Origin: an uncultured Ellagibacter sp.
GTDB lineage: Bacteria > Actinomycetota > Coriobacteriia > Coriobacteriales > Eggerthellaceae
Direction of reading: 5' to 3'
Length of the DNA stretch: 13,735 nt
Assembly: GCA_934613165.1 (NCBI GenBank)
Contig: CAKTSW010000010.1
Location: 1-13,735 of the forward strand
The notes under the pieces are model-generated. The model was not told the origin of the DNA. It was given only the letters and a program-made list of their open reading frames with translations, and ran no database searches. This document shows, one piece after another, positions 1 through 13,735 of this stretch. The first letter of the stretch is position 1. Each line of letters starts with the position of its first letter. The position numbers and the translations under genes were made by a program.

Positions 1-926
1 CGTTCTTCTCGGCGATGACGACCACGATGATGTCGAAGGTCATGTACTCGTCGGAGGCCGTCATGATCGCCGAAGACGCGCTGCGGCGGATGAACGCGAT
101 TATGGAGGTCGCCCCCATCGCCGAGGTGGACGCCGAGAACGCGCTTCATCCGAAGGAGGCGAGCATCGAGCTTGCAAACGTCAGCTTCTCGTACCCGGCC
201 TCCAAGGAACCGGCGCTTCACGACGTGTCGCTTTCCGTTCCCGCCGGGGCGACGGTGGCGCTCGTCGGGCCGTCGGGCGGCGGCAAGTCGACGCTCGCGT
301 CGCTCGTCCCGCGCTTCTGGGATGCGGATGAGGGCGCCGTTCTCGTGGGCGGGGCGGACGTGCGGCGCATTCCGTCCGAAGAGCTGATGGGTATCGTTTC
401 CTTCGTGTTCCAAAACGACCGGCTGTTCAAGCGGAGCTTGGCCGACAACGTGCGCGCGGGTCGCCCCGACGCGAGCGATGCCGAGGTGCTCGCGGCGCTC
501 CATGCGGCCCAGTGCGACGACATCGTCGCCAAGTTCCCCGACGGCGTGGACACCGTGGTGGGGAAGGCGGGCGTGTACCTTTCCGGGGGAGAGCGCCAGC
601 GCATCGCGCTTGCGCGCGCCATCCTGAAAGACGCCCCGATCGTGGTCCTCGACGAGGCGACGGCGTTCGCCGACCCCGAAAACGAGGCGCTGATTCAGGC
701 TGCTCTCGCGACGCTTTGCAAAGACAAGACGGTGCTCATGATCGCGCACCGCCTGTCCACCGTCGCGAACGCGGATTGTATCTTCGTCATCGACCGGGGC
801 TCTGTCGTGGAGCAAGGCACTCATGAAGAACTCGTCGCGCAGGGCGGGCTGTACGCGCGCATGTGGCGAGACTACCGAACGAGCGCGACGTGGAAGATCG
901 AAAGGGGTGACAGCCGTGCGGCGTAG
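1..926 (+). CDS. ABC transporter half, permease-ATPase fusion (C-terminal part, 5' truncated)
   Basis: The reading frame is open from base 3 with no start of its own, so the gene begins before the window. What remains is the end of the membrane domain and a whole nucleotide-binding domain. Walker A (GPSGGGKST) lies at 267-293, the LSGGE signature at 579-593, Walker B with its catalytic glutamate (VVLDEA) at about 642-659, and the H-loop (IAHR) follows near 740. The stop is TAG at 924-926. The next gene starts at 916 inside this one, so the two halves are probably translationally coupled and pair as a heterodimer that uses ATP to move a substrate across the cytoplasmic membrane. The text ATAFADPENE after Walker B recalls, from memory, IrtA/YbtP-type siderophore transporters and related exporters. 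The substrate cannot be read from sequence. Family is certain, role is not. Confidence 0.93.
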   Translation, partial: FFSAMTTTMMSKVMYSSEAVMIAEDALRRMNAIMEVAPIAEVDAENALHPKEASIELANVSFSYPASKEPALHDVSLSVPAGATVALVGPSGGGKSTLASLVPRFWDADEGAVLVGGADVRRIPSEELMGIVSFVFQNDRLFKRSLADNVRAGRPDASDAEVLAALHAAQCDDIVAKFPDGVDTVVGKAGVYLSGGERQRIALARAILKDAPIVVLDEATAFADPENEALIQAALATLCKDKTVLMIAHRLSTVANADCIFVIDRGSVVEQGTHEELVAQGGLYARMWRDYRTSATWKIERGDSRAA

Positions 927-2661
927 GCTTCAAGATGCTTTCGCCCTGACCGACCAGGGCATGAAGGACTTCGTGCGCGGCGCCGGGTTCTGCGCGCTGG
1001 CGAACCTGATGCTGATGCTGCCCATCGCGGTGTTGTACTTCGTTGCGAGCGATTTCATCAGGTACCTTGGCGATCCTGCTGCCGGCCTGCCCGGAATGGC
1101 GCCCTACGCGGCGGGCATACTGGCGGCGCTCGCCGCGATGTCCGTCACGCAGATGTGGGAATACCGCGCGACGTACACGGTGGTGTACCGGGAAAGCGCC
1201 CGCAAGCGCATCGCCATCGCGGAGCGCCTGCGGCTGCTCCCGCTCTCGTTCTTCGGGAAGCGCGATTTGGCCGACTTGACGAGCGTCATCATGAAGGACT
1301 GCTCCGACCAGGAGCGCCTGTTCTCGCACACCATGCCGCAGATCTTCGGCATGGGCGCCTCGACGCTGGTGTTCGCCGCCATGATGTTCGCGTGCGACTG
1401 GAGGCTGGCGGCGTCCGCGCTCTGGCCCATTCCCGTGGCGCTCGCGGCGCTGCTTCTGACCGCGCGCGTCCAGAAGTCGCATACCGCGAAGAAGAACGCG
1501 GCGTCCCTTGCATTCGCCGATGGGCTGCAGGAATACCTCGAATGCCACCGCGAGATACGCTCGCTCAACAAGGTGGGCGCGTTCCAGGGCGAGCTTGGCC
1601 GCCGCATCGATCGCTTCGAACGGGAGAAGATCGGCGCCGAGCTGGCTATGGGCGTGGCGGTGTGCTCCGCCCAAGGATTCTTGCGCCTGGGAATCGCATC
1701 CGTCATCGTGGCGGGGACGATGCTGCTCGTAACAGGGCAGGTCGACTTCCTCGTGTTCTTCGTGTACCTGCTGGCGGTGACGAGGATCTACGACCCCATC
1801 AACGTCATCTTGCAGGCCACAGCCGAGCTGATGGACATGAGCTTGAGCCTGGAGCGCATGCGCGCCATCGAGAGCGAGCCGGTTCAGACAGGCAGCACCT
1901 CGTTTAAGCCTCAAGGGTACGACGTGGTTTTCGACGACGTGGGCTTCGCATACGCCGACGGCGAGGATGTCTTGGACGGCGTGTCGTTCACGGCGCGGGA
2001 GGGGCAGGTGACGGCGCTTGTGGGCGCGTCCGGTTCGGGCAAGAGCACGGCCGTCAAGCTCGCTTCGCGTTTTTGGGACGTAAGCTCGGGCGCGGTCTAT
2101 GTGGGCGGCGTCGACGTCTCCTCCATCGATCCGGAAACGCTGCTTTCCGCGTTTTCCGAGGTGTTCCAGGACGTGGTGCTTTTCGACGGCACCGTGCGCG
2201 AGAACATACGCCTCGGGAAGAAGGACGCCACGAACGAGGAGGTTCTCGCAGCTGCGAAGGCGGCGCGCTGCGACGAGTTCGTAGAGCGTTTGCCCGAGGG
2301 CTACGACACGATGATCGGGGAAAACGGCAGCAGGCTTTCGGGTGGCGAGCGCCAGCGGATCTCTATCGCGCGTGCCTTGCTGAAAGATGCCCCGATCGTG
2401 CTGCTCGACGAAGCCACGGCTTCGCTCGACGTGGAAAACGAGACGCAGGTGCAAGCCGCGCTCTCCGAGCTGCTTCAAGGCAAGACGGTCCTCGTCATCG
2501 CGCACCGCATGCGCACGGTCGACAACGCCGACAAGATCGTGGTGCTGGAAGGCGGTCGCGTGGTGGAACAGGGAAGCCCGGCCGAGCTGCGCGATAAGCC
2601 CGAAGGCAGATACCGCCGTATGCTGGAGTTGCAGCGCGAAAGCGCCGAGTGGGCCCTCTAA
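916..2661 (+). CDS. ABC transporter half, permease-ATPase fusion (second subunit)
   Basis: A complete half-transporter of 581 residues, the normal length for a fused six-helix membrane domain plus ATPase. I chose GTG 916 because AAAGGGG at 901-907 is a well-spaced ribosome binding site. A longer frame from ATG 823 would add only low-complexity arginine-rich sequence overlapping the previous gene, and ATG 961 would cut into the first helix region. Hydrophobic segments occupy roughly residues 22-330. Walker A (GASGSGKST) is at residues 370-378, LSGGERQ starts at 474, Walker B is IVLLDE ending at E499, and the H-loop histidine is H530. All catalytic residues are present, so both ATP sites of the presumed heterodimer could be active. 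It forms an operon with the preceding gene and ends at a strong terminator. The substrate is unknown; siderophore or multidrug transport are both possible. Confidence 0.94.
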   Translation: MRRRLQDAFALTDQGMKDFVRGAGFCALANLMLMLPIAVLYFVASDFIRYLGDPAAGLPGMAPYAAGILAALAAMSVTQMWEYRATYTVVYRESARKRIAIAERLRLLPLSFFGKRDLADLTSVIMKDCSDQERLFSHTMPQIFGMGASTLVFAAMMFACDWRLAASALWPIPVALAALLLTARVQKSHTAKKNAASLAFADGLQEYLECHREIRSLNKVGAFQGELGRRIDRFEREKIGAELAMGVAVCSAQGFLRLGIASVIVAGTMLLVTGQVDFLVFFVYLLAVTRIYDPINVILQATAELMDMSLSLERMRAIESEPVQTGSTSFKPQGYDVVFDDVGFAYADGEDVLDGVSFTAREGQVTALVGASGSGKSTAVKLASRFWDVSSGAVYVGGVDVSSIDPETLLSAFSEVFQDVVLFDGTVRENIRLGKKDATNEEVLAAAKAARCDEFVERLPEGYDTMIGENGSRLSGGERQRISIARALLKDAPIVLLDEATASLDVENETQVQAALSELLQGKTVLVIAHRMRTVDNADKIVVLEGGRVVEQGSPAELRDKPEGRYRRMLELQRESAEWAL

Positions 2662-2708
2662 CGCGAAGGCGGCGCAAGGCGTCGCGAACCCTCGCGCCGT
2701 CTCCGTAA

Positions 2709-2742
2709 AAAAGGGAGCCGACCGTGCGGTCGGCTCCCTTTT
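2709..2742. terminator. Bidirectional rho-independent terminator
   Basis: A perfect 15-bp inverted repeat with a GTGC loop: the arm at 2709-2723 pairs with 2728-2742. The core AGGGAGCCGACC is GC-rich. T-rich sequence follows the stem on both strands (TTTTCGTTT to the right, and the complement of AAAAAA at 2707-2712 to the left). It lies 48 bases after the ABC operon and about 90 bases beyond the end of the convergent molybdoenzyme operon, so it should stop transcription from both sides. Confidence 0.92.
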
Positions 2743-2793
2743 CGTTTGCCCGGGCCTAGAAGAGGGGAAGGGAAACCCGGGTTTTGGAAGGAT

Positions 2794-2818
2794 GCGCGCC
2801 GGAGGGGGAGGGGCGCGC
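2794..2818 (-). terminator. Possible secondary hairpin after the anchor gene
   Basis: GCGCGCC at 2794-2800 pairs with GGCGCGC at 2812-2818 around an 11-base purine loop. It lies directly downstream of the minus-strand stop at 2833. No clear T-run follows it on the minus strand, so it may be a processing or stabilising hairpin or a weak terminator ahead of the strong one at 2709-2742. Confidence 0.3.
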
Positions 2819-2832
2819 CGGATATGTTCCCG

Positions 2833-3705
2833 CTACAGCGGATAGTTGAACGAGGCGATGCCGTTCAGGTAGAACACCACGCGCAGGGCGAACGCCGCGA
2901 CGAACCCGGCGACGACGATGACGGGGGCCGCCACCTTCCAGTTCTTCTGCTGCTTGCCGAAGATTGCCGCCGCGATGGCGACCACGATGGCGACGATCGT
3001 CACGATCGCGGGTGCCAGGGAATCGCCGGTGAAGGGGCCGACGGCGGTGGAGGAGTTGTACAGCGCCGCGTTAGGCTGGGTGGGATCGAAGCTGTAATCG
3101 CTCAGGTAGAACAGCGAGCCGCTCATGAAGTTCATCGACACGAGGTAGGCGAACATGATCACGCCGCCCGCGATGGAGCCGATGAGGTTCTGCTTCGTCA
3201 TGTCCGCGTCGTCCTTCTTCACCGCAGCGATGACGGCGACGGTGGCCGGGCCCATGACGAGGCCTCCCGCAACGATGGAGAGGATCTGCAGCACGCTATC
3301 CCATGCGGGACGCGCCGGCATGTTGTAGGAATGGCCCGAGACCACGCATAGCACCACGGCGAGCACGATTGCGATGACGGAGCACCACGTGGGGATCTTG
3401 CCTTCGTTGCGGCGATAGAGCGCGAAGTACACGACCATCCACACGAACAGCGCGATGATGGCGATGAGCTCCTGGGTGATACCGGAGGTCAGGTTGCCGA
3501 AGCCGTTGAAGATGTGCAGCGGCTGGGCAAGGTGGAACGTCACCGAGATGCCACCGATTGCAAGCAGGACGACCGACACGATGAGGGCGGGAAGCTGGAC
3601 CCTTTCGCCCTTGCCCTTGATGGCGAGGATGGCGCTCGATCCGAACACGCCCGCCGACCAGGCAAGAAACGTCGTGAACAGGATAAGGGGAATCTGGATT
3701 TCCAT
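2833..3705 (-). CDS. DmsC/NrfD-like membrane anchor subunit of molybdoenzyme
   Basis: A 290-residue, strongly hydrophobic protein with about eight membrane segments (roughly residues 5-29, 38-60, 81-98, 108-127, 139-163, 175-199, 230-250 and 256-280). That matches the length and topology of DMSO-reductase anchor subunits. The stretch HLAQPLHIFNGF (58-69) and the late RVVFYLNGI (275-283) resemble DmsC. Such subunits fix the catalytic and ferredoxin subunits to the membrane and exchange electrons with the quinone pool. It starts two bases after the ferredoxin gene's stop, with GGAGGAG at 3714-3720 as ribosome binding site, so it is the last gene of the operon. DmsC family is more likely than NrfD proper, but the two are hard to separate by eye. 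The quinone-binding residues were not identified. Confidence 0.88.
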   Translation of the reverse strand: MEIQIPLILFTTFLAWSAGVFGSSAILAIKGKGERVQLPALIVSVVLLAIGGISVTFHLAQPLHIFNGFGNLTSGITQELIAIIALFVWMVVYFALYRRNEGKIPTWCSVIAIVLAVVLCVVSGHSYNMPARPAWDSVLQILSIVAGGLVMGPATVAVIAAVKKDDADMTKQNLIGSIAGGVIMFAYLVSMNFMSGSLFYLSDYSFDPTQPNAALYNSSTAVGPFTGDSLAPAIVTIVAIVVAIAAAIFGKQQKNWKVAAPVIVVAGFVAAFALRVVFYLNGIASFNYPL

Positions 3706-3707
3706 GG

Positions 3708-4391
3708 TTACTTCTCCTCCTCACCCTCGCCGCTTTGCCATTTGCGATTGCGCAGGATGTAGCAGACCGACGGGTCGTTGCCCACGTTCGGCAGATGGTA
3801 GATGTCGTCTTCGGTGTAGGGGGTCACACAGTCCTTGAGCGTGATGCGCGAGTCGACCGTGCGCTGATAGGAGTTGTCCTTCTCCGTGATGTCGACGACG
3901 TAGTTCGCCTCGAAGGTGTCGATGCCCTTGTCGAGGTCGCCGAAGAAGCGGGCGCGCGCGCCGCAGGACTGGACGCACTGGGGCAGCTGGCCCTCGGCGG
4001 TTTTCTGCTGGCACAGCGTGCATTTCTCGACGACGCCTTCGCCCTGGTTGAGGTAGCGGACGCCGTAGGGGCAGCTCATGACGCAGAACTGGCAGCCGAT
4101 GCACTTCTCCTTGTTAATCTGGATCGTGCCGTCTTCGGCTTTGTAGCTCGCGCCGGTGGGGCACACCTTGACGCACTCGGGGTTCTTGCAGTGCTGGCAC
4201 TGCAGCGTGAGGAAGTACATCTCGACGTCGGGCCACTGGCCGCTTCCGCCCTCTTTCGGGTTGGGGCCGACGCGAAGCGTCTTGTTCCAGAAGTTGCCCG
4301 GAAGCACGCCGTTGACGAGCTTGCACGCCGCGCTGCAGGCGAGGCACCCGACGCAGCGGTTGAGGTCGGTTACGATCGCATAGCGAGTCAT
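3708..4391 (-). CDS. Four-cluster ferredoxin electron-transfer subunit (DmsB-like)
   Basis: A 227-residue protein with sixteen cysteines in four groups: C13/C16/C19/C23, C65/C68/C73/C77, C97/C100/C103/C107 and C124/C127/C139/C143. This is the standard arrangement of the DmsB/NrfC/PsrB family, which holds four [4Fe-4S] clusters and passes electrons between the membrane anchor and the molybdopterin subunit. There is no signal peptide, so export would be by hitchhiking on the Tat signal of the catalytic subunit. AAGGAGG lies at about 4400-4406 on the minus strand with good spacing. The start is three bases after the catalytic subunit's stop, and the stop is two bases before the anchor gene. The tail of about 80 residues after the last cysteine is acidic and ends in EGEEEK. 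Family assignment is secure; the specific partner follows from the operon. Confidence 0.95.
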   Translation of the reverse strand: MTRYAIVTDLNRCVGCLACSAACKLVNGVLPGNFWNKTLRVGPNPKEGGSGQWPDVEMYFLTLQCQHCKNPECVKVCPTGASYKAEDGTIQINKEKCIGCQFCVMSCPYGVRYLNQGEGVVEKCTLCQQKTAEGQLPQCVQSCGARARFFGDLDKGIDTFEANYVVDITEKDNSYQRTVDSRITLKDCVTPYTEDDIYHLPNVGNDPSVCYILRNRKWQSGEGEEEK

Positions 4392-4394
4392 GGT

Positions 4395-7307
4395 TTAGGC
4401 CTCCTTCCTGATCTCGTAGTTCGGCAGCCAATCCCTGAGGCGAGGATCGGACGCGCTGTGGATGATCTCGTTTCCGTTGTGGTCGCAGGGCACGGGGTTG
4501 CCGAAAGGCGAGTTCTCCGCCGTGGCCTTGTAGATCTTGACCGGGTATCCGCGCAGGTAGCTCGAACCCGTGACGGGGTCCTGGAAGCCGACGCCCGTGG
4601 TGACGAGGCAGTTGATGCCGGAAAGGTCAAAGCCGCGATCCGCCTGGTCAAGCTCGGGGTACCACCACTGATGCTCGGCGTGGATGATGCCCTTCTGGAT
4701 GCCGTAGTACAGATCGGCCGTCTGGCGAACCTTGCCCTGGTCGTTTTCGATCCACACCCAGTCGCCCTGCTCGATGCCGAGCTCGGCGGCGTCTTCGGGG
4801 TTGATTTCGCAACGCGGCACGGGCCACTGCTCGCGGCACCAGGGAAGCTGGCGATGCTCGGAGTGGAAGTACACCGGGATGCGGCGGCCGGTGATGCAGG
4901 TGAAGGGGTACTTCTCGTTCATCTCGGGGTTCATCTTCGGAGACAGCGGCGGCTCGTTGTAGAACGGCAGCGGGCTGTAGGGGTTGCCCTCGACGTCCGT
5001 CTTGCCCTCCATGAACTTCTCGCAGATAAGGGAGTACAGCTCGACCTTGCGGGTGGGCGTGCGCCAACCGGGGATCATGAGCTCGCTCACGGGGTTCTCG
5101 CCGAAGCACTTGAGCGGCATCATGCCGGTCTCGTAGCGGCGATAGGTGCCCCAGGCGTCGGGCGCGACGATCTTGCAATCCTGCCAGCCGTTCTTCTCGA
5201 AGTCGTCTCTGTACTCCTGCCAGGTCTGGCCGCTCGCCGCGATGATGAGGTCGAGGTTCTCCTCGGCGGTGGGGTGCGGGTTGTCCGGCTTGCCCCAGTC
5301 GACGCCCATGTAGTCGTAGATCATCATGGCCGTTTCGAGGTCGGCCTTGACGTCGGCCGGCGGCTCGACCGCGCGCACCGTCGCGCCGCGAGCGCCGTGG
5401 GCGCCCTGCGACAGGCGCGGGCAGTTGGTCTCGATCCAGTGCTCGGCGGGCAAGAGGATGTCGGCCATGCCAGCGGTCGGGGTCTTCCACAGATCCTCGC
5501 ACACGAAGAAGTCGAGGTTCTTGAACGCCTCCCACTTCTGCAGGGAGTTGGACATGCACATGAAGTCGCCGGTGCAGCTCCAGCCGAACTTGACGGGATA
5601 GGGGTCCCCGGTCTCGATGGTTTTCCACAAAGACGCGTCGTCGGCCCATTCCTGCCACCAGGACAGCATCGGGAAATCCTCGACGCCGATGGCCTTGTCG
5701 GTCTGGGACACGGGCAGGTAGGCCTCTTCCAGGCCGGGGGCCATGGATCCGGGGCCGGCCTTCTGCACGTAGTCGGCCTGCGTGCCGCCGCGCGGGCCGC
5801 CGGGGATGTCGTAGTTGCCGGTGATGGACCAAAGCATCTCGAGCGCGCGGCAGGTGCCCATGGCGTTGCAGTAGTGCTCGATGGCGAGCTGGGCGTTGAT
5901 GCCGCCGTTGCCGTAGCCGGTTTCGGGGTCGAGGCGCGTCGCGTAGGTGAGCGCGGCCTTCTCGATCGTCTTCGCGTCGACGCCGGTGATCTCGGAGACG
6001 TACTCGGGCGTGAACTTGTCGAGGTACTCCATGAACTTCTGCCAGACGGGGATGGCGGTGACCTCGCGGCCGTCCTTCAACGTGACCTTGAACTCGCCGT
6101 AGAGCGCCGGGTCCTTCTCGGGGTCGAACTCGGTCGGGTCGAGGACCCAGCCCTGGCTCACACCGGGAAGCAGGTGCTTCTGCTGGGCTTCCTTGCCCGC
6201 GGTCGGGGCCTTCCAGTTCTCGCCTTCGCCTTCCCAGAAGCCGGTGAGCGAGTCGAAGTAGGTCATCTTGTCGTTAAGGTTGTCCCACACCATGAAGCGG
6301 TCGACCGAGCCGCCTTCCTTGATGTCGCTTTCCTTGAGCAGGCGGGTCTTGATGGTCCAGTCGCCGCTCATGAACCGCTTGCGCGTGCCGCCTTCGGTGG
6401 GCTCCATCTCCTCCACGTAGAGGAAGGGCGCGTTCATCCAGCGCTTGACGAACAGGTCGTCTTGCAGGTCGTTGTCGAGGATGACCTTGATCCAGCCCAA
6501 GGCCATCGCGTCGTCGGTGCCGGGGCGCAGGTTCACCCAGATGTCGGCTTCCTTGCCGAGGTTGGTCATGCGCGGGTCGACGAGGATATGGTGCTCCGCC
6601 TTCTCGTGCACGTCGACGATGGTGCGGCAGGAGTCGTCGTAGTTCGACATCTCGACCGCCGTCGCCCACTGGGTGTACACGAGCGGGCGTGCGACGTTCT
6701 CGGTCCAGAAGTCCTGGAAAAGGCTCGTGATGCCGCCGCACCAGTGGCGCGGGCCCTTGCAGACCTGCCACGGGATGGCCATGTTGGGCGAACCGGTAAG
6801 CTGTGCGAGCGCGCCGTAGGCGAACATGCCCCAGATGCGGCTCGTGCCGGACATGCCGAACACGGTCTCCACGCCGTACTTGTCCATGCACTCGTTCATC
6901 TTCGTGGAGATGGTCTCCATCGCCTCGTCCCAGGTGATGCGCTCCCAGCCCGGGTCGTCTTCGCCGCGGGGGTTCGTGCGCTTCATCGGGTGGTACAGAC
7001 GGTCGGGGTGGTAGGCTGCCTGCAGAGACGACTGGCTCTTGCAGCAGCAGTGGCCGAACGACTGGAACGCCGACTCATCGCCCTCGACGCGCGTGGCGAC
7101 GCCGTCTTCGACGGTGACCCAAACGCCGCATTCCATCTTGCCGCAGCCGCGGCAGCAGCTGCGCACGCGCGTGATCTTGGAATCGCTTTTGGCTTGATCG
7201 CCCGTGCCGGTGTCCGCCAGCGCGACGGAAGTCATCTGCGAGCCGATCGCCGCAGCGGCGCCAACCGCCGCCGAAAGCTTCACGAAGCTTCTGCGCGAAA
7301 GGTTCAT
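4395..7307 (-). CDS. Tat-exported molybdopterin oxidoreductase, acetylene hydratase / catechol dehydroxylase-like
   Basis: Catalytic subunit of 970 residues in the DMSO reductase superfamily. ATG 7305-7307 is chosen because AGGAGGG precedes it and the protein then begins with a Tat signal (SRRSFVK at residues 4-10, hydrophobic stretch, likely cleavage after ALA at 31). A [4Fe-4S] site is formed by C52, C55, C60 and a fourth cysteine in the CCC run at 87-89, followed by K90. Then comes GSPN (172-175), and C183 in the segment WQVCKGPRHWC is the probable Mo ligand. Later segments such as PYPVK, TPTAGMADILLPAEHW and the C-terminal pterin-binding domain resemble, from memory, acetylene hydratase (GSPN...MYMCIG, with Cys141 as metal ligand). 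In Eggerthellaceae this branch includes the catechol dehydroxylases. With the ferredoxin and anchor genes behind it, it is most likely a membrane-bound reductase facing outward. The substrate cannot be told from sequence. Confidence 0.93.
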   Translation of the reverse strand: MNLSRRSFVKLSAAVGAAAAIGSQMTSVALADTGTGDQAKSDSKITRVRSCCRGCGKMECGVWVTVEDGVATRVEGDESAFQSFGHCCCKSQSSLQAAYHPDRLYHPMKRTNPRGEDDPGWERITWDEAMETISTKMNECMDKYGVETVFGMSGTSRIWGMFAYGALAQLTGSPNMAIPWQVCKGPRHWCGGITSLFQDFWTENVARPLVYTQWATAVEMSNYDDSCRTIVDVHEKAEHHILVDPRMTNLGKEADIWVNLRPGTDDAMALGWIKVILDNDLQDDLFVKRWMNAPFLYVEEMEPTEGGTRKRFMSGDWTIKTRLLKESDIKEGGSVDRFMVWDNLNDKMTYFDSLTGFWEGEGENWKAPTAGKEAQQKHLLPGVSQGWVLDPTEFDPEKDPALYGEFKVTLKDGREVTAIPVWQKFMEYLDKFTPEYVSEITGVDAKTIEKAALTYATRLDPETGYGNGGINAQLAIEHYCNAMGTCRALEMLWSITGNYDIPGGPRGGTQADYVQKAGPGSMAPGLEEAYLPVSQTDKAIGVEDFPMLSWWQEWADDASLWKTIETGDPYPVKFGWSCTGDFMCMSNSLQKWEAFKNLDFFVCEDLWKTPTAGMADILLPAEHWIETNCPRLSQGAHGARGATVRAVEPPADVKADLETAMMIYDYMGVDWGKPDNPHPTAEENLDLIIAASGQTWQEYRDDFEKNGWQDCKIVAPDAWGTYRRYETGMMPLKCFGENPVSELMIPGWRTPTRKVELYSLICEKFMEGKTDVEGNPYSPLPFYNEPPLSPKMNPEMNEKYPFTCITGRRIPVYFHSEHRQLPWCREQWPVPRCEINPEDAAELGIEQGDWVWIENDQGKVRQTADLYYGIQKGIIHAEHQWWYPELDQADRGFDLSGINCLVTTGVGFQDPVTGSSYLRGYPVKIYKATAENSPFGNPVPCDHNGNEIIHSASDPRLRDWLPNYEIRKEA

Positions 7308-7340
7308 CTTTCCCTCCTCTTTGCTCTTTCTCTCTCTTTC

Positions 7341-7377
7341 CGAGATGGGGCTTCGCCTTTGCGCCCGACATCTCGGC
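7341..7377 (-). promoter_or_regulatory. Hairpin in the leader of the molybdoenzyme mRNA
   Basis: CCGAGATG at 7341-7348 pairs perfectly with CATCTCGG at 7370-7377. An inner GGGC/GCCC helix (7349-7352 with 7364-7367) adds four pairs, with a two-base bulge and an 11-base loop. In the minus-strand transcript it stands 33 bases before the start codon, followed by a purine-only run and the ribosome binding site. No U-run follows, so it is not a terminator. It could stabilise the mRNA or regulate translation; it does not look like the much larger Moco riboswitch. The structure is seen; the function is inferred. Confidence 0.45.
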
Positions 7378-7448
7378 ATCTAACCTATCAGCGCGATGCC
7401 GGGTTCCCCGTTTCGCTCTTTTCCTTGTGAGGATTGTTGAGCTTTCAT

Positions 7449-7464
7449 GATTCCCAAATGGAAT
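7449..7464. promoter_or_regulatory. Palindromic operator candidate, copy 1 (LysR-type box)
   Basis: GATTCCCAAATGGAAT contains the inverted repeat ATTCC-N5-GGAAT and fits the LysR-type pattern T-N11-A. It lies in the 262-base gap between the divergent molybdoenzyme operon (start 7307) and the LysR gene (start 7570), about 140 and 105 bases upstream of them. The identical 16 bases recur at 9437-9452. The site is AT-rich in a GC-rich region. The likely reader is the neighbouring LysR protein or a paralogue. Confidence 0.65.
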
Positions 7465-7468
7465 TAAG

Positions 7469-7477
7469 TGGTATTCT
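7469..7477 (+). promoter_or_regulatory. Possible extended -10 element for the LysR gene
   Basis: TGG followed by TATTCT resembles an extended -10 element, about 93 bases before the LysR start. No good -35 hexamer is seen; where it should be, the palindrome at 7449-7464 lies instead. That arrangement would fit autorepression, which is common for LysR regulators. No convincing promoter for the molybdoenzyme operon was found on the other strand. Confidence 0.3.
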
Positions 7478-7569
7478 TCGAATCGGGCAGCGCCGTCGAC
7501 CCAGGTTGGACGGCATGTCGTTCTCTGGGGAATCGCGAGGGGTCGCGAAAAGGGGTATAAGGGGGATTC

Positions 7570-8528
7570 ATGCGTATCTCGTATATCGACGAGTTTCTCG
7601 AACTGTATAAATGCGTCAACTTCAACGAAGCCGCGAGAACCTCTTCATAAGCCAGTCGACGCTGTCGAAGCACATCAAGGCGCTTGAAGACGACCTTGGG
7701 GTGAAGCTTTTCAACCGCGACAAATACTATTCCGAGCTCACCGTCCAAGGGAGCGAGTTCTACGCGTATGCGGTGCAGATATCGAAGGCGTACAAGGCCG
7801 CCCAGGAGCAATTCGAGAACGAGTCGGTCGCGCGCGGGCGGTTCCTCGTCGGGGGTCTTATGGACAGCGCGCTCGAAACGGATTGGCTCAACCGCGCGAC
7901 GAGGGTGATGCGCGCACGGTACCCCCAGTTCACCCCGATGTTCATTCCATCGGGCATCAATTCTCCCATGGGGGAGCTTGCCTGCGGCAACCTCGATGCG
8001 CTCATTTTCGCGTACAACGGCAACGACGCGTTCGCGGGCGAATCGGGCCCGATCCGCGCCATCCCGCTTAAGCGCGTGCCGATCATGGCGCTTGTGAGCG
8101 CAAACGGGTCGCTTTCGCATTTGAGCGTCGTCAAGGCGGAGGACATGAAGCGCAAGACGTTCATCCAGATGATGGGGCCGCGCATGCAATCGGGCTGGCG
8201 CGCGATGGCAAGGTTCCTCGAAGGGCTGCACATCGAGTACGACACGCGTCAGGTGCCGATCATGTCGGCGTACGATTACCCGAGCATCGCGCTTTCCGAC
8301 GACGACGTCCTTCTCATCCCGAAATGCGAGCTGTCCCCCAACGCCCTTGCGGGCAACGCCCTCATCGAGGGCGCGGTCGTCCTTCCCATCGCCGAGGCGA
8401 CCGCCTTCACGCCGCTCGACCTTATCTTCAAGGAGAACGACGCGCCGGCGTTCATCGACGATTTCGCGGACGTGCTCAAGAAGACGCCGCTTTTCGCAAG
8501 CGCCTGCCCGACCTTCGAATGCATTTAA
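7570..8528 (+). pseudogene. LysR-family transcriptional regulator, frameshifted in the N-terminal HTH
   Basis: Two frames together make one LysR-type regulator of about 319 residues. ATG 7570 has a strong ribosome binding site (AAGGGGG) and reads MRISYIDEFLELYKCVNFNE, a typical LysR start, but this frame stops at TAA 7648-7650 after 26 codons. The rest, LFISQSTLSKHIKALEDDLG onward, is in another frame from about 7638 to the stop at 8528 and contains the second half of the winged helix and the effector-binding domain. One missing base near 7636-7638 (AGAAC instead of AGGAAC) would join them as NEAARNLFISQS. The ATG at 7611 in the second frame has no ribosome binding site and would give a protein lacking the first HTH helices. 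Either the gene is inactivated or the base is a sequence error. An intact copy would probably control the divergent molybdoenzyme operon. Confidence 0.85.
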
Positions 8529-8530
8529 CC

Positions 8531-8629
8531 GGCGCGCCCGCCCGCGTGCCGGGTGCCGGCGGCCCCGCCTGACGACAGGCCCCGCGCGCCGTTTAAGGAC
8601 GGCGAGACGGAGCGCCCGAATGGGCGCTC
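8531..8629. other. GC-rich hairpin cluster between convergent genes
   Basis: The gap between the LysR stop (8528) and the convergent stop at 8642 holds several short perfect stems: GGCGCGC 8531-8537 with GCGCGCC 8584-8590, enclosing GCCGG/CCGGC (8548-8560) and GCCTG/CAGGC (8567-8580), then GAGCGCCC/GGGCGCTC with a GAAT loop (8610-8629). None is followed by a T-run. The last hairpin is the best candidate for a shared transcription end. In sequence this GC-rich, some of these stems will be chance. Confidence 0.35.
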
Positions 8630-8641
8630 GGCCGGGTGCTT

Positions 8642-9313
8642 CTATAGCGCGACTTTTCGAGAGGTGCCGTCGGCGAACAGGATGTGCGCCGTGCTCGCGT
8701 CGAGCTTGCGGGCGTCTTGCTCGTCGAGTGCCACGCGCGCCACGGCGACGCTTTGGGCGGTTATGCCCGAATTGAACCATGCGCGCACCTGCTTGATGAC
8801 CGCCGGGGCGTTATCGGGTATGGCGCAGTCGGGCGTGAGCTCGACGTCGATGAGGGCTTTCCCGTCGAATTCGTACTGAACGGAGCTGAAGGGCACCTCA
8901 AGCCCGCCGTTGCGGTGGCGCATCGTGTTGAAGGCGACCATGGTGTTCGACACCTTTGTGGTGACGTTTCGCAGCCAGCGGTCCATCATGGAATCCCATA
9001 GCTCGACGGCCGCCGGGTTGTCGGTTTCCCAGTAGGGCTTGTGCAGCCGTATGGCGATGCGCATGATGCAGCGCGCCGGAACGATCTTAAGCGACGCGGC
9101 GGCCTCTTTCCCCGCGTCGACGTTGCCGTCCTCGTCGGTCGCGGCTGTCTCGATCTCTGCGCGTTTCTCGGCGCTGATCTCCTCTTCGTGGAACTTCACG
9201 CGGGTCGGCGCGATGTACAGATACGAGCGCTTGATCGCCTGCGTGAGCTCGGAGTTCGGGTCGAGACGCGAATCGACGTTTACCGTCAGGATGACGGATG
9301 GTCTTACGGACAT
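8642..9313 (-). CDS. Hypothetical protein, 223 residues
   Basis: I do not recognise this family. ATG 9311-9313 is preceded on the minus strand by GAGAGG at good spacing, and the protein begins MSVRPSVILTVNVDSRLDP. A longer frame upstream is only the antisense of the next gene. The sequence has an alternating hydrophobic start, a charged segment at about residues 43-70 (EEEISAEKRAEIE...EDGNVDAGKE), and a more conserved-looking part around 80-190 rich in W, F and Y. There is no signal peptide, membrane helix or cysteine motif, so it is probably a soluble cytoplasmic protein. It is transcribed away from the TorD operon and shares with it the intergenic region that carries palindrome copy 2, which suggests a common regulator. 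It is real on codon pattern and start signals; its function is unknown. Confidence 0.75.
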   Translation of the reverse strand: MSVRPSVILTVNVDSRLDPNSELTQAIKRSYLYIAPTRVKFHEEEISAEKRAEIETAATDEDGNVDAGKEAAASLKIVPARCIMRIAIRLHKPYWETDNPAAVELWDSMMDRWLRNVTTKVSNTMVAFNTMRHRNGGLEVPFSSVQYEFDGKALIDVELTPDCAIPDNAPAVIKQVRAWFNSGITAQSVAVARVALDEQDARKLDASTAHILFADGTSRKVAL

Positions 9314-9357
9314 ACCTATTCCTCTCTTTGTCAACGTGCCTCTCGAACCCGTTTCCG

Positions 9358-9387
9358 ATTGTGCCGCCGCCGCGGTGCTTTCGTCAA
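9358..9387 (-). promoter_or_regulatory. Promoter candidate for the 223-residue gene
   Basis: On the minus strand TTGACG (9382-9387) is followed after 18 bases by CACAAT (9358-9363), about 45 bases before the start codon. The -35 is close to consensus, the -10 is fair and the spacer is acceptable. Confidence 0.45.
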
Positions 9388-9436
9388 CAACTTGCCATGC
9401 ACGTTTTGGATTCGACTGATTACAAAGGGCATCGAG

Positions 9437-9452
9437 GATTCCCAAATGGAAT
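9437..9452. promoter_or_regulatory. Palindromic operator candidate, copy 2
   Basis: GATTCCCAAATGGAAT is identical to copy 1 at 7449-7464. Here the flanking C extends the arms to GATTCC-N5-GGAATC. It ends ten bases before the TTGACC of the plus-strand promoter candidate, so its centre is about 50 bases upstream of the expected transcription start, a usual place for a LysR-type activator site. Confidence 0.65.
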
Positions 9453-9462
9453 CGACATCGCG

Positions 9463-9490
9463 TTGACCGCATCGACTCGCTTCCCATACT
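9463..9490 (+). promoter_or_regulatory. Promoter candidate for the TorD operon
   Basis: TTGACC (9463-9468), a 16-base spacer and CATACT (9485-9490). The -35 matches consensus in five of six positions and the -10 in four. Transcription would start near 9497 and leave a leader of about 120 bases before ATG 9620. Palindrome copy 2 sits just upstream. Confidence 0.5.
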
Positions 9491-9619
9491 GCACAGGTAG
9501 ATAAGCGCCGCTCGAACCCACGATTGCGACGTATGCCGGGCTTCCTCCGTTCGAGGGGAACGATCGCGAATCCGCGCGACAAGGGAGCTTCGGCTGAAGA
9601 AAAAAGAGGGAGGGCGAGA

Positions 9620-10459
9620 ATGCCACAACCAACAGATTCGCGAGATCTTTCGTCGTTGTTCGACGACGGGTTCGATCTCGAGCAGGCTATCGACGACCGA
9701 TTCAGCACCGAGGGAATCGACACGGAAAACGGCTCCTGGATCCCCGAAACGCCGACGCAGACCGCGAAGGCGCCGGTCGTGAGGAAAAAGGCCGACACGC
9801 GCACCGCCGAAGAGCGCATAGACGACCTTTTCTCGAAGATGGGGCCGCAGCGCCGGATCCTCATCGCCGTTTTGTCCGCATGCGGTAAGCGCGCCCCGTT
9901 CGACGAGCTCGATCGCGTCGTCGGCGAGATGCAGCAGTTCAACGCCTCGGTCTATTCGACGTCGAACTTCTGCGCGATGCTCGAGGCGGCGGGCGCGCTC
10001 AAGCACGTCGTCGAGGACGGGACGCTCTATCGCGACTTCGTGAACGAGCCCGAGCTCGTCGTCGTTGACGGTCTTGAATTCTTGAAGCCCCGACCTGCGC
10101 CGAAGAGCTTCTGGGAGGCGACCGACGAAGGTACCGCCCGCGTCGCCGCCCACGACCCGTACGCCCAGCTCGCCAAGATTTACGGGGAGTTCCCGCACAC
10201 GCTTCCCATCTACAAGCGCGTGCTGTCGATGCTCGCGGAAAGCCCCGACGGCGTCGAGCTCCCGGAAATCGCCGCGGCGGTCGACGACGACCCGCTCGTC
10301 CAGAAGCCGCGTTTCTACGCGGGGCACTTCCTCGAGCGGCTCGAGCGCGCCGACGCGGTCGAATGGCGCGGCGCCTGGTGCATAACCGACGTGGGGCGCG
10401 CATCGCTCAAGCAGATGGACGACGTGGCCGACCCGGGCTTGCCCGGCGCGGAAAAGTAG
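9620..10459 (+). CDS. Probable tandem winged-helix protein, first gene of TorD operon
   Basis: A 279-residue protein of no family I can name. ATG 9620 is chosen for the GGGAGGG just upstream; a longer frame from 9524 has an arginine-rich unlikely N-terminus and no ribosome binding site. Residues 1-60 are acidic and polar and look disordered. Residues about 62-140 (helices with DELDRVVGEM and SNFCAMLEAAGALKHV, then a short strand with VVEDG) and about 181-265 (LPIYKRVLSMLAE, LPEIAAAVDDD, FLERLERADAVEW, then WCITDVGRASL) each read like a winged-helix fold, the second ending in the T-x2-G pattern common in such domains. A DNA-binding or protein-docking role is inferred. It is followed after 13 bases by the TorD gene, so it is probably co-transcribed with it. 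Confidence 0.8.
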   Translation: MPQPTDSRDLSSLFDDGFDLEQAIDDRFSTEGIDTENGSWIPETPTQTAKAPVVRKKADTRTAEERIDDLFSKMGPQRRILIAVLSACGKRAPFDELDRVVGEMQQFNASVYSTSNFCAMLEAAGALKHVVEDGTLYRDFVNEPELVVVDGLEFLKPRPAPKSFWEATDEGTARVAAHDPYAQLAKIYGEFPHTLPIYKRVLSMLAESPDGVELPEIAAAVDDDPLVQKPRFYAGHFLERLERADAVEWRGAWCITDVGRASLKQMDDVADPGLPGAEK

Positions 10460-10472
10460 AGGGGGCAGGGAA

Positions 10473-11300
10473 ATGACCGAGCAGAACGCACAGGGCGCGA
10501 TCGGCGCCGAGGACCAGGTCGCGGACGCGCGCGACGCGGATACGGTGGGCAATGCCGAGCTGCACGATTTGTGCCGCAGCTACGCCGACGCCTTCGGGCT
10601 CATGGCCCACCTTTGCAACAAGGAAGTCGACGAGGGCCTTCTCGCCACGCTCATGGAGACGCTCTACCCGCTGTCGAGCGGCAACGACAACGTCTCCGAA
10701 TCGAGCCGCCTCATCGCAGGGTACCTTTCCAAGACCTGGGAGGGCGCGCTTGACGATATGGCCGCCGACTACACGGCGACCTTCATCGGGCACGGGTCCG
10801 ACGGGCACAGCGCCGCCTACCCCTACGAGTCCGCCTACACGAGCTCGAAGCGCCTGCTCATGCAGGGCGCGCGCACCGAGGTCCTCGCGATCTACCGCAG
10901 CCAGGGCCTCGACAAGCAGGAAAGCTGGCGCAACAGCGAGGACCACGTTTCCGTGGAATTCGAGTTCATCCAGCGCATGTTCGTCCGTGCGGCCAACGCG
11001 TTCAAGCGAAACGACGTCGAACATGCCGAGTTCTTCCTGACCACGCTGCGTGGGTTCGTCGTCTCGCACCCCCTTGCGTGGGTTCCCATGCTCGCCTCCG
11101 AGATGCGCAACTTCGCGAAGACCGACTTCTACCGCGGCCTGAGCTTCATGCTGGTGGGGTATCTGCAGCTGACGAAGCAGATGCTCGACGAGATCCTGGG
11201 AATCGAAGAGGACGCGCAAGGCGCCGACGCGGACGCCTTCGCCGTCGACTTCGGGGCGAGCCTCGACGACGGCCTTAACGTCGCTGCGGACGAGGACTAG
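10473..11300 (+). CDS. TorD/DmsD-family molybdoenzyme chaperone
   Basis: A 275-residue, mostly helical protein with the family's landmarks: YTATF (100-104), PYESAY (117-122), a glycine turn at G145, EDHVSVEFEF (156-165) and the later helix pair FFLTTLRGFVVSHPLAW (187-203). These chaperones bind Tat signal peptides and apo-forms of molybdopterin enzymes in the cytoplasm, so that cofactor is inserted before export. The molybdoenzyme at 4395-7307 has such a signal and is a natural client, but this is inferred from neighbourhood and a shared operator motif. It is somewhat longer than typical TorD proteins (about 200 residues), with an acidic N-terminal extension of about 25 residues and an acidic tail of about 30. 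GAGGGGG precedes the ATG. Confidence 0.9.
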   Translation: MTEQNAQGAIGAEDQVADARDADTVGNAELHDLCRSYADAFGLMAHLCNKEVDEGLLATLMETLYPLSSGNDNVSESSRLIAGYLSKTWEGALDDMAADYTATFIGHGSDGHSAAYPYESAYTSSKRLLMQGARTEVLAIYRSQGLDKQESWRNSEDHVSVEFEFIQRMFVRAANAFKRNDVEHAEFFLTTLRGFVVSHPLAWVPMLASEMRNFAKTDFYRGLSFMLVGYLQLTKQMLDEILGIEEDAQGADADAFAVDFGASLDDGLNVAADED

Positions 11301-11307
11301 ATGCCGT

Positions 11308-13218
11308 ATGGGTTGCAACCAGAAAGACGCGCTGCTCGTCCGCGGCGCCTCATCGACGGGAAAAACCGCTGCCCTCGCCGCGCGCGCTTGCGAGCTTGCG
11401 GCGGCTGGCGAGGACGTCCTCGTTGTCGCCGCCTGCCCGGGTGGCCTGCGCGAAATGGGCAAACGGCTTAGCGCCTTCGGCGATGGGGGCTCCGTCCGCC
11501 TTGTCAGCGCCGAGCGCTTGGCGTCCGATCTGCTTGGAGAGCCGGAAGTCGCCGCGCACCTGGGCCATCCCGCCCGCCTCATGATGCCCTTCGAGCAGAA
11601 GATGCTCTTCGAGGATTTGAAGACGAGCGGCATCAAGCCCAAGCGCCTGCGCGAGATGACGGGGTTCTTCGAGCGCACCTACAGCGACCTGGGCGAGCGA
11701 GCCGATGACTTCCCCTTCGAATGGGAAGAGACGGGCATGCTCTCCTACGAGGAGGGGTATCTCTCCCTTTACAAGGTGGCGACGATCGAGCGCGCCTCGT
11801 GCGTCATTTGCCGCTGTCTTGAGGAAGACGGGTCCTTCGCCGCGCGCGTCGGCGCGCAGCACGTGCTCGTCGACGACTATCGGCTCTTGGGGCGTGCCAT
11901 GCAGCGTGCGTGCTGCGCCCTGGCGAAGCGGGAAATCGTCGTGTCGTGGGATGACGCCCCGGCGACCCCCGTCCGCTTCCGGTTTCCCTGCGAGACGGGC
12001 GACGCCGAGTTCTTGGAGGCGTTCCCGAACGCGCGCGTCGTCGATCTGGGCGCGAGCCGCGCGAGCCGGGGCGTATGCGAGGCGCTGGACGCGATTCGCG
12101 CAGACGAGGTCATGGGGCTCGAGTCCCTTACGTGCGCCCTCGGCGAGGGGTCGCAGGCGGGCGCAGGCGAGCGCCGAGCCTTCGCCACCCCCGCTGCCGA
12201 GCTCGAGGGCATCGTGGGCATCTTCAAGGAGGCTCACGATCGAGGCGTCGCCTGGAGCGATATGGCGATAAGCGGCGTGAGTGGGCTGTGGCTCGCGAAC
12301 GCGGCGTCGGCCTTGCGCCGCGCGGGCGTTCCCGTCTCGGTCGTGCCCGATGACGACGTCGTCCCGGTCGGCTTCGAAAACGAGAAACGCAACGACGCCG
12401 CGCGCCTGGCGAGCATGATCGCGCTCGCCGCGAACCCCGACGACGACATGGCCTGGCGCGCGTGGTGCGGGTTCGGGTCGTACACGGGCAACAGCGCCGT
12501 CTTCATACGCATCCGCGAGGCGGCGAAGGCCGACGGATGCGGCGTGCGCGCCGTGCTCGAGGGGATTCGGGCGGGCAAATACCCCAAGATCGGCGCGATC
12601 GCCGACTCGGCGAACGTCGTGACCGCCCTCGACGAGGCCCTCTTCGCCTTGGGAAAGCTCGAAGGCGCCCGAGGAAGCGAGCTTCTCCATCTTGCCGCGA
12701 CGCTTTCCCAGGTAAACGACGGGAAGCCCGCTAGCGGCATCATGCGGCTTATAAGCTGCGCCAATGGGCGGCACGGTCTGTCCGGAGGCGAAGACGCCCC
12801 GGCTCTTGCGGCCCTTTTGGCGCATGCGGCGGCAGAGCCGACCCGCTCGGCGGACGACGCCGTGCTCGCTTGCGCGCCCGAGGGCATGGCGGGCGAGAAG
12901 TTTCGCGTCGTCGTCTTCTGCGGCGCGGTGAACGGCATCGTGCCGAAGGCGAAGTACTTCGATGCGGCTCAGCTCGAAGAGGACAAGCGCGACCGCGTGC
13001 GCCGCAAGGACGAGGCGCGCCTGTACGCGGCGCTTTCATGCGCAACCGATTCGATGCATGTGACGAGCTTCACCGACATCGGGCTCGAGCAAGCCGAGCG
13101 CCTGAAACTCGAGATGGACCGTATTCGGGCGGAACGCGGCATGCGCATCGCCACGGTGTCGCCGAGCGTCTTCGTGCTCGGCATCCCCGATGCTGGCAGA
13201 GCCGGTGACGGGCGATGA
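11308..13218 (+). CDS. Degenerate UvrD/Rep-like P-loop protein
   Basis: A 636-residue protein that follows the outline of superfamily 1 helicases but has lost key residues. Q-motif-like NQ (4-5) and an intact Walker A (GASSTGKT, 13-20) open it. Motif II is HVLVDDYRLL (185-194) where helicases have VDEFQD, so the catalytic glutamate is aspartate and the Gln is Arg. Motif III is reduced to VVSWDDAP (211-218). The C-terminal half has AGVPVSVV (339-346), FRVVVFCGAVNGIVP (532-546) and RLYAALSCATDSMHV (571-585), which match motifs IV-VI, but the usual TRA is SCA, so the arginine finger is gone. It may bind ATP without being an active helicase. It starts eight bases after the TorD stop and its stop overlaps the ferredoxin start (ATGA). 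A DNA repair role is possible but unlikely in this operon. The size is near that of small UvrD proteins. Confidence 0.85.
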   Translation: MGCNQKDALLVRGASSTGKTAALAARACELAAAGEDVLVVAACPGGLREMGKRLSAFGDGGSVRLVSAERLASDLLGEPEVAAHLGHPARLMMPFEQKMLFEDLKTSGIKPKRLREMTGFFERTYSDLGERADDFPFEWEETGMLSYEEGYLSLYKVATIERASCVICRCLEEDGSFAARVGAQHVLVDDYRLLGRAMQRACCALAKREIVVSWDDAPATPVRFRFPCETGDAEFLEAFPNARVVDLGASRASRGVCEALDAIRADEVMGLESLTCALGEGSQAGAGERRAFATPAAELEGIVGIFKEAHDRGVAWSDMAISGVSGLWLANAASALRRAGVPVSVVPDDDVVPVGFENEKRNDAARLASMIALAANPDDDMAWRAWCGFGSYTGNSAVFIRIREAAKADGCGVRAVLEGIRAGKYPKIGAIADSANVVTALDEALFALGKLEGARGSELLHLAATLSQVNDGKPASGIMRLISCANGRHGLSGGEDAPALAALLAHAAAEPTRSADDAVLACAPEGMAGEKFRVVVFCGAVNGIVPKAKYFDAAQLEEDKRDRVRRKDEARLYAALSCATDSMHVTSFTDIGLEQAERLKLEMDRIRAERGMRIATVSPSVFVLGIPDAGRAGDGR

Positions 13219-13735
13219 AAGAGGCGATCCTCGGCGTATGGGAGGGCATCGACAGCACGCTTTTGGGGGTGCATCCCGAGCGCTGCATCTGCATTCGCAA
13301 CAAAAACGCCCATTGCATGCGATGTGCCGAGGTCTGCACGACGGGGGCCATCGCCTTCGACGGCGAGACGCTTTCGCTCGACCCCGACCGCTGCATCGGG
13401 TGCGGAACCTGTGCGACCGCGTGCCCGACATGCGCGCTCGAGGCGAAGAACCCGACCGACCGCGAGCTTTCCGCCGCTTGCGCGGCGAAGATCTCCTCGT
13501 CGGAGGGCTCGCTCGAGCTTCGCTGCTCGAGCAACGTCGGCGGCGGGGAGGCGTCGGGGGAGGTGCCGGACGTCATGTGCATGGGGCGCCTTGACGAGTC
13601 GCTTTTCGTGGAGATGGCGCTGCGCGGATGCAAGCGGGTCGTCCTGCACACGGGGGACTGCGCGGCATGCCCCCATGCGCACGGCGGCGCCCTGGCGCGC
13701 GAGGTCGCATCGTCGGTGTCGGATCTGCTGGCGGC
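13215..13735 (+). CDS. Ferredoxin-type 4Fe-4S protein with MvhD-like C-terminal part (3' truncated)
   Basis: ATG 13215 overlaps the previous stop by four bases and the frame is open to the edge of the window (173 codons seen). Cysteine groups C26/C34/C37/C41 (with an extra C24) and C60/C63/C66/C70 form two [4Fe-4S] sites, the first with an unusual seven-residue gap. The following part has single cysteines at C89, C104, C122 and C139, and a CMGRLDESLF (122-131) ... GDCAAC (147-152) pattern that resembles, from memory, the MvhD/F420-hydrogenase delta-type iron-sulfur domain. No signal peptide or membrane helix is visible, so it is a cytoplasmic electron carrier. Its position behind a molybdoenzyme chaperone suggests it supplies electrons for a cytoplasmic step or partner; the partner is probably encoded beyond the window. 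Confidence 0.85.
   Translation, partial: MKEAILGVWEGIDSTLLGVHPERCICIRNKNAHCMRCAEVCTTGAIAFDGETLSLDPDRCIGCGTCATACPTCALEAKNPTDRELSAACAAKISSSEGSLELRCSSNVGGGEASGEVPDVMCMGRLDESLFVEMALRGCKRVVLHTGDCAACPHAHGGALAREVASSVSDLLA

Follow-up and report, generated by a model that had tools for sequence, protein, structure and literature searches.

Why should the same 16-base palindrome, GATTCCCAAATGGAAT, stand in two separate intergenic regions of a 13,735-nt stretch of DNA from an uncultured Ellagibacter sp. (contig CAKTSW010000010.1, positions 1-13,735, assembly GCA_934613165.1; the whole stretch is called the window here), once between the genes of a molybdoenzyme and a LysR-type regulator, and once ahead of an operon for a TorD-family chaperone and other accessory proteins? 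The answer we favor from comparisons of sequence is that ATTCC-N5-GGAAT is very probably the operator of a LysR subfamily, and that the LysR would bind both copies and co-regulate the enzyme, its own gene and the maturation operon. We observed an exact duplication, conservation at orthologous places despite a change of spacer, and a tight association with one LysR subfamily. The two copies and the promoter that follows the second are listed with their counterparts in L001, a locus from an Eggerthellaceae metagenome-assembled genome:

7449..7464, no strand: putative operator copy 1, GATTCCCAAATGGAAT (ATTCC-N5-GGAAT, T-N11-A), exact match; orthologous site at L001 5579-5593, other spacer
9437..9452, no strand: putative operator copy 2, GATTCCCAAATGGAAT, exact match; orthologous site at L001 8601-8615, other spacer
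9463..9468, plus strand: -35-like TTGACC of the accessory operon promoter, read in the window and kept in L001
9485..9490, plus strand: -10-like CATACT, 16 nt after TTGACC, read in the window and kept in L001; CATACT also lies 3′ of the site in seven dadh loci

GATTCCCAAATGGAAT is an imperfect palindrome in which the arms ATTCC and GGAAT enclose the 5-nt spacer CAAAT, and with T at position 2 and A at position 14 it has the interrupted T-N11-A geometry that is typical of the operators of LysR proteins. Across both strands the window holds exactly these two copies, with no further match at up to three mismatches on either strand, and dinucleotide shuffles of the window gave a mean of 0.03 matches and never two in one shuffle. 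Copy 1 lies between the start of the molybdoenzyme gene (7307, minus strand) and the LysR gene (from 7570, plus strand), and copy 2 between the starts of the genes for a 223-residue protein (9313, minus strand) and a 279-residue protein (9620, plus strand). The placement is that of an operator: one site is near a divergent regulator gene and the other upstream of a target promoter, ending ten bases before TTGACC and centered about 52 bp before a transcription start that we guessed from the hexamers. The original prediction, made from the letters of the window, had described a repeat confined to these two places between divergent genes, unlikely to have been duplicated by chance and LysR-like in its core, with a LysR gene adjoining copy 1 (7570..8528, plus strand, PF00126 match) and a -35 element (9463-9468, with CATACT 16 bases on) ten bases past copy 2, and on each of these points it held.

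Has the element been kept where the genes around it have been kept? A search of 5.8 billion proteins gave 27 matches to the window LysR, nine of them close relatives with 57-96% identity, and a search of genome contigs with a LysR alignment gave 13 loci, of which L001 alone is truly orthologous to the window locus (72% identity across residues 1-319), the remaining 12 reaching 29-53% identity over 72-198 residues only. At E 1e-40 or better, an orthologue of the window LysR is present in one of the 138 genomes of the family. L001 has the gene set and order of the window, with two small extra open reading frames (ORFs) after the LysR gene. The arms are identical at both of its sites, and the spacers are GTTTT and TAACC as against CAAAT in the window. 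Around copy 1 only 40% of the columns of the intergenic alignment of the window and L001 are identical, yet both arms persist without change; near copy 2 the stretch running from TTTTGGATTC to CATACT is well conserved, the arms, TTGACC and CATACT being identical. The nearest relative found is G001, with a molybdoenzyme 93% identical to that of the window. Many copies unrelated to these genes would have spoken against the prediction, and G001, a 2.4-Mb draft assembly that may be incomplete, has exactly two ATTCC-N5-GGAAT sites, the two orthologous ones of L001, and none of a reversed control. The expectation that the motif would be kept upstream of orthologous operons was likewise borne out, in L001 and in the loci described below.

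Chance copies exist in coding DNA, so a test of the motif must rest on loci chosen by their proteins. The 17-base pattern GATTCC-N5-GGAATC occurs at 27 places in 24 of the 138 genomes, and since 22 of the 25 places outside G001 fall inside ORFs (crude gene caller), a raw genome scan alone is a poor test. One of the three intergenic places, L051 (the same place as L079), lies at a molybdoenzyme promoter in a related cluster; the stretches taken around the other two, L055 and L061, contain no query gene. The queries were the 223-residue protein (matched in 28 of the 138 genomes), the 279-residue protein (60 genomes), in both cases with some of the matching loci taken, and an alignment of 16 LysR proteins (101 genomes at E 1e-30), whose 59 matches listed at 195 bits or more were covered except for G081:C153 (partial) and G070:C1:1916193, leaving 57. 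The duplicates L051, L076 and L083 were dropped, giving 107 loci and 1,493,403 bases, among which L138 and L170 have about 4 kb in common, with no exact site there. We define the LysR subfamily as the 58 genes that score at least 190 bits against the 16-protein model.

The 107 loci contain 15 exact ATTCC-N5-GGAAT sites, in 13 loci, and every one of them is at most 400 nt upstream of a subfamily LysR gene, or of a molybdoenzyme, 279-residue or 223-residue gene in a locus with such a LysR. Those regions amount to 47.6 kb, or 3.2% of the sequence; no exact site occurs in the 1,409 kb elsewhere in these loci, and none in 34.3 kb of equivalent promoters in loci that lack a subfamily LysR. With the window and L001 removed the count is 11 of 11, and 20 of 49 one-mismatch sites also fall in the same promoter regions. 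The 40 loci taken via the 279-residue protein contribute three exact sites, every one between a LysR gene and a molybdoenzyme gene. On these sequence comparisons the link between ATTCC-N5-GGAAT and LysR appears well supported.

How far does the link extend within the subfamily? In a stretch of about 450 nt before the LysR, molybdoenzyme, 279-residue or 223-residue genes, 33 of the 58 LysRs have a site with at most one mismatch or of the form ATKCC-N5-GGMAT, and 13 have an exact one; the 33 include L188, whose only site has one mismatch and stands upstream of the 279-residue gene, and the second LysR in each of L169 and L172, which shares its neighbor's site. The LysR-linked clusters L111 and L117 have no site that we could find. 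The window, L001 and the dadh loci are alone in having an exact site ahead of the accessory operon; the site there departs by one mismatch in L086 and by two in L079, L085, L088, L090, L091 and L092. A search of the intergenic regions on the LysR side of the 58 genes, preset to 5-bp arms, a 5-nt spacer and T at position 2 with the other arm letters free, returned 23 perfect palindromes (11 with ATTCC arms, three with ATGCC and nine with seven other arms).

The regulators differ far more than the site does. Members of the alignment outside the orthologue group of the window's LysR share only 21-27% identity with its first sequence, and Q29, L32, S33, K34 and H35 of the recognition helix are invariant in all 16 aligned proteins. 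Perfect ATGCC-N5-GGCAT sites occur in L075, L169, L172, L090 and L091, where the LysR has Pro at helix residue 30; by hand count, with the dadh loci left out, the loci with exact ATTCC sites have 11 Ser and two Pro at this residue, mostly Ser therefore, and the ATGCC loci no Ser and five Pro. Residue 30 is possibly a one-residue specificity switch, a lead only, seen post hoc and in related loci.

Is the element also present in the dadh clusters, whose enzyme has been studied? In genome G054, locus L213 has, in order, a molybdoenzyme, a LuxR-family protein (PF00196), a 188-residue protein, a helicase-like protein, a protein of the 279-residue type and a TorD protein. The 188-residue protein matches above cut-off only the helix-turn-helix (HTH) domain of LysR (PF00126), with no match to an effector domain. 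As judged from sequence, this gene set matches the described DadR, DadS and DadhD-F (PMC9734109, PMC11887054). The L213 molybdoenzyme has Ser at residue 506, counted from MGNL, and Ser 506 is reported for Dadh in strains that metabolize dopamine poorly or not at all, DSM 2243 being named as a non-metabolizer (PMC9734109).

In L213 an exact site, ATTCCGTTTCGGAAT, spans the stop codon of dadS, some 110 nt before dadhD, and the same place carries an exact site in all seven loci with matches to Dadh, DadR and DadS (L213, L218, L219, L220, L221, L222 and L231), with CATACT 3′ of the site in all seven. In each of the 21 pairs of these loci the codons under the site are identical wherever the residue is the same; the preceding 30 codons have many synonymous differences in distant pairs (only 9 of 20 are kept between L220 and L221, for example) and are nearly all kept in close pairs. 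In L219 dadS (6973-7538) is frame-shifted, but the site at its stop codon is undamaged. No exact site was found in L230, where the LysR match is 107 bits. G054 has a second exact site inside a molybdoenzyme gene, and between dadh and dadR, at L213 5369-5384, there is a different palindrome, ATTCT-N6-AGAAT, which could be a site for DadR or for another protein.

DadS has been suggested as a possible controller of the TorD and ferredoxin genes in a 2022 paper on E. lenta regulators (PMC9734109); the dadh accessory genes are reported to be co-induced by dopamine, and dadhD-H to be needed for activity in a heterologous host (PMC11887054). We consider it possible, though we advance it tentatively, that one operator serves as a common socket for many Eggerthellaceae LysRs, the sensors having diverged and the helix having remained fixed, so that each regulator would couple its own molybdoenzyme, or only a maturation operon, to a different signal; DadS would then be a regulator of the accessory operon that acts at its own stop codon.

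The genes on which the operator would act in the window are these:

2833..3705, minus strand: DmsC-like membrane anchor, PF04976
3708..4391, minus strand: 4Fe-4S electron-transfer subunit, by family match
4395..7307, minus strand: molybdoenzyme catalytic subunit with a Tat signal, 49% identical to a protein read as E. lenta Dadh
7570..8528, plus strand: LysR-type regulator gene, frame interrupted near residue 23; intact orthologues exist
8642..9313, minus strand: 223-residue protein, no Pfam or NCBIfam match
9620..10459, plus strand: 279-residue protein, DadhE-like, 34% identity
10473..11300, plus strand: TorD-family chaperone, DadhF-like, 44% identity
11308..13218, plus strand: helicase-like protein, DadhD-like, 27% identity
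13215..13733, plus strand: ferredoxin-type Fe-S protein, runs off the window

By homology the cluster appears to be that of a catechol dehydroxylase, since it has an enzyme 49% identical to Dadh across 1029 alignment columns, B and C subunits recognized through Pfam, and DadhD-, DadhE- and DadhF-like accessory genes. The DadhD-like protein (11308-13218) has a weak similarity to DNA helicase II (E 2e-5), and a dadhD deletion is reported to leave Dadh expression undetectable (PMC11887054). We found no relatives of the TorD protein on viral contigs. The LysR HTH domain is matched on the ORF 7611-8528 (PF00126, E 3.1e-10), and the substrate-binding domain, PF03466, scores 24.4 bits, under its cut-off of 28; the orthologues P0010-P0018 are annotated with PF03466.

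We propose that the LysR beside copy 1, in its intact form, would bind both copies and, once bound, would co-regulate its own gene together with the molybdoenzyme operon and the maturation operon of DadhE/DadhF/DadhD-like proteins, so that the enzyme and its accessory proteins would be made together. Activation would depend on a signal, with copy 2 centered about 52 bp before the guessed start, and that signal is probably a phenolic substrate of the enzyme. For the small regulon of the original prediction, conservation and the LysR association support the molybdoenzyme, LysR and TorD operon as members; the 223-residue gene we place there by inference only. Its promoter-like hexamers are at 9387-9382 and 9363-9358 (minus strand), about 50 bases from copy 2. 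Relatives of its product, present in 28 of 138 family genomes, are in many cases near molybdoenzyme genes, and none was found on plasmids.

Several observations weigh against a LysR operator shared by these operons. The LysR reading frame of the window is broken by a change near residue 23 (window 7570-7660) that its close relatives do not have, which is either a real pseudogene or an assembly error. As many as 25 of the 58 subfamily LysRs lack, in the stretches searched, both a site with one mismatch or none and the ATKCC-N5-GGMAT form. Some of the loci resemble one another (L079/L092, L101/L103/L171 and L189/L190), so that fewer than 15 independent lineages stand behind the 15 sites; moreover, the 16-protein model drew in part on loci already known to carry the site, and the threshold of 190 bits was chosen later still. 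Sixteen genomes selected for having such LysR genes or sites contain 38 exact ATTCC-N5-GGAAT sites vs. four of the reversed control, and 18 of the 38 are by our own tally sites already known from the protein-chosen and dadh loci, which, given how the genomes were selected, is not an independent count. The other 20 are elsewhere, 16 inside ORFs (crude caller) and four intergenic, of which two are beside other molybdoenzyme-like genes, one of these a weak match. Finally, deletion of dadS from a plasmid-borne dadh cluster in G. urolithinfaciens is reported to leave dopamine metabolism unaffected (PMC11887054), and DadS is therefore not essential there.

Does the LysR activate, or does it bind and mainly repress, whether released by an inducer or acting on its own gene? 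LysR proteins often activate a target and repress their own gene from one site, and repression of that kind is compatible with the co-regulation proposed here. In L101, L103 and L171 the site is centered 14 nt ahead of the start of LysR, a position suited to blocking, and the plasmid test, in which no activity was lost with dadS (PMC11887054), would also suit a repressor. Against this, the site in the window, L001 and the dadh loci immediately precedes the -35-like region of the accessory operon, a usual place for activation, and we judge a mainly repressive role unlikely.

It is more improbable still that the palindrome belongs to another regulator of the cluster, such as the 12-transmembrane (12-TM) LuxR activators of catechol dehydroxylase operons, with LysR a mere neighbor. 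For dadh, cadh and hcdh of E. lenta the activators reported are LuxR proteins (PMC9734109), and the dadh loci carry both types of regulator. However, many exact sites are directly between a LysR gene and its divergent molybdoenzyme, and the T-N11-A geometry is typical of LysR proteins. We rejected a LuxR operator because no exact site is present in any of the 11 loci that match LuxR (at 40-139 bits to the tail of DadR, in most cases 40-61) and do not match LysR. That the duplicate is chance, or a recent copy of short functionless DNA, as the identity of the two window copies might suggest, is scarcely credible when the flanks beyond the 16 bases differ between the copies, L001 keeps both sites with different spacers, and all 15 exact sites fall in so small a part of the sequence.

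Does the putative LysR operator of the window have a second half? Many LysR operators have a second site about 21 bp away, or about two helical turns. Among 29 aligned sites, the highest peak beyond the overlap of the site with itself is at offset -21, with five of the 29 matching at seven or more of 10 arm positions; a second (activation) site about 21 bp from the operator may thus be hinted at, weakly, and the claim of a strong tandem site was dropped because only those five agree. Two candidates are in the window:

7473..7483, no strand: short palindrome ATTC-TTC-GAAT, center 21 bp from copy 1; only a lead
9419..9432, no strand: possible degenerate second half of a tandem site, ATTAC-N4-GGCAT, center about 20 bp upstream of copy 2; surrounding block GATTACAAAGGGCATCGA with one change in L001

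ATTC-TTC-GAAT is not kept at that distance in L001. Other elements accompany the operator elsewhere: the molybdoenzyme promoters of L085, L086, L088, L090 and L091 have a second conserved element, GGAAATTCCTTAT, downstream of it; L189 and L190 have in common an extra palindrome, TTTCC-N5-GGAAA, about 44 nt upstream of LysR; and L091 has, 95 nt upstream of LysR, ATTCC-N4-GGAAT, with the same arms and a spacer one base shorter.

Catechol dehydroxylases govern the conversion of dopamine and dietary polyphenols by gut bacteria, and what turns their accessory genes on has been an open question. With a defined operator the suggestion about DadS can be tested directly, the orphan enzyme clusters under a LysR regulator can be predicted, and there is a handle for finding inducers and hence substrates. 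The operator ATTCC-N5-GGAAT is unreported in the accessible portions of the open-licence literature on LysR proteins of Eggerthellaceae and Coriobacteria, DadS, catechol dehydroxylases and LysR regulation of molybdenum enzymes. A LysR operator as such is a known kind of thing; its sharing across divergent sensors and the prediction for DadS seem to be new.

How does this arrangement compare with known systems? By sequence, the nearest specifically named structures to the LysR are of the BenM/CatM type, which share the T-N11-A palindrome and the HTH recognition helix and differ in arm letters, ATAC-N7-GTAT, and in target pathways. CO dehydrogenase, which CutR regulates, is like the enzyme here a molybdenum enzyme. 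CutR of Mycobacterium sp. JC1 is a LysR-type regulator that binds inverted repeats ahead of its own divergent gene and, near -60, ahead of the enzyme operon (PMC12609908), whereas its arms are TTAAG-n6-CTTAA (T-n12-A) rather than ATTCC-n5-GGAAT (T-n11-A), and the sections of that paper available to us link no separate maturation operon by the site. The Gs Vadh cluster of Gordonibacter is a catechol dehydroxylase cluster with a LysR gene, for which the available text gives no operator (PMC11887054). The E. lenta dadh system differs in its 12-TM LuxR activator, in a DadS that matches only the DNA-binding domain of LysR, and in that the exact site marks the accessory operon and not the enzyme operon; it shares with the window a homologous enzyme (49%), the TorD chaperone, DadhE and DadhD homologues, and an exact site ahead of the accessory operon.

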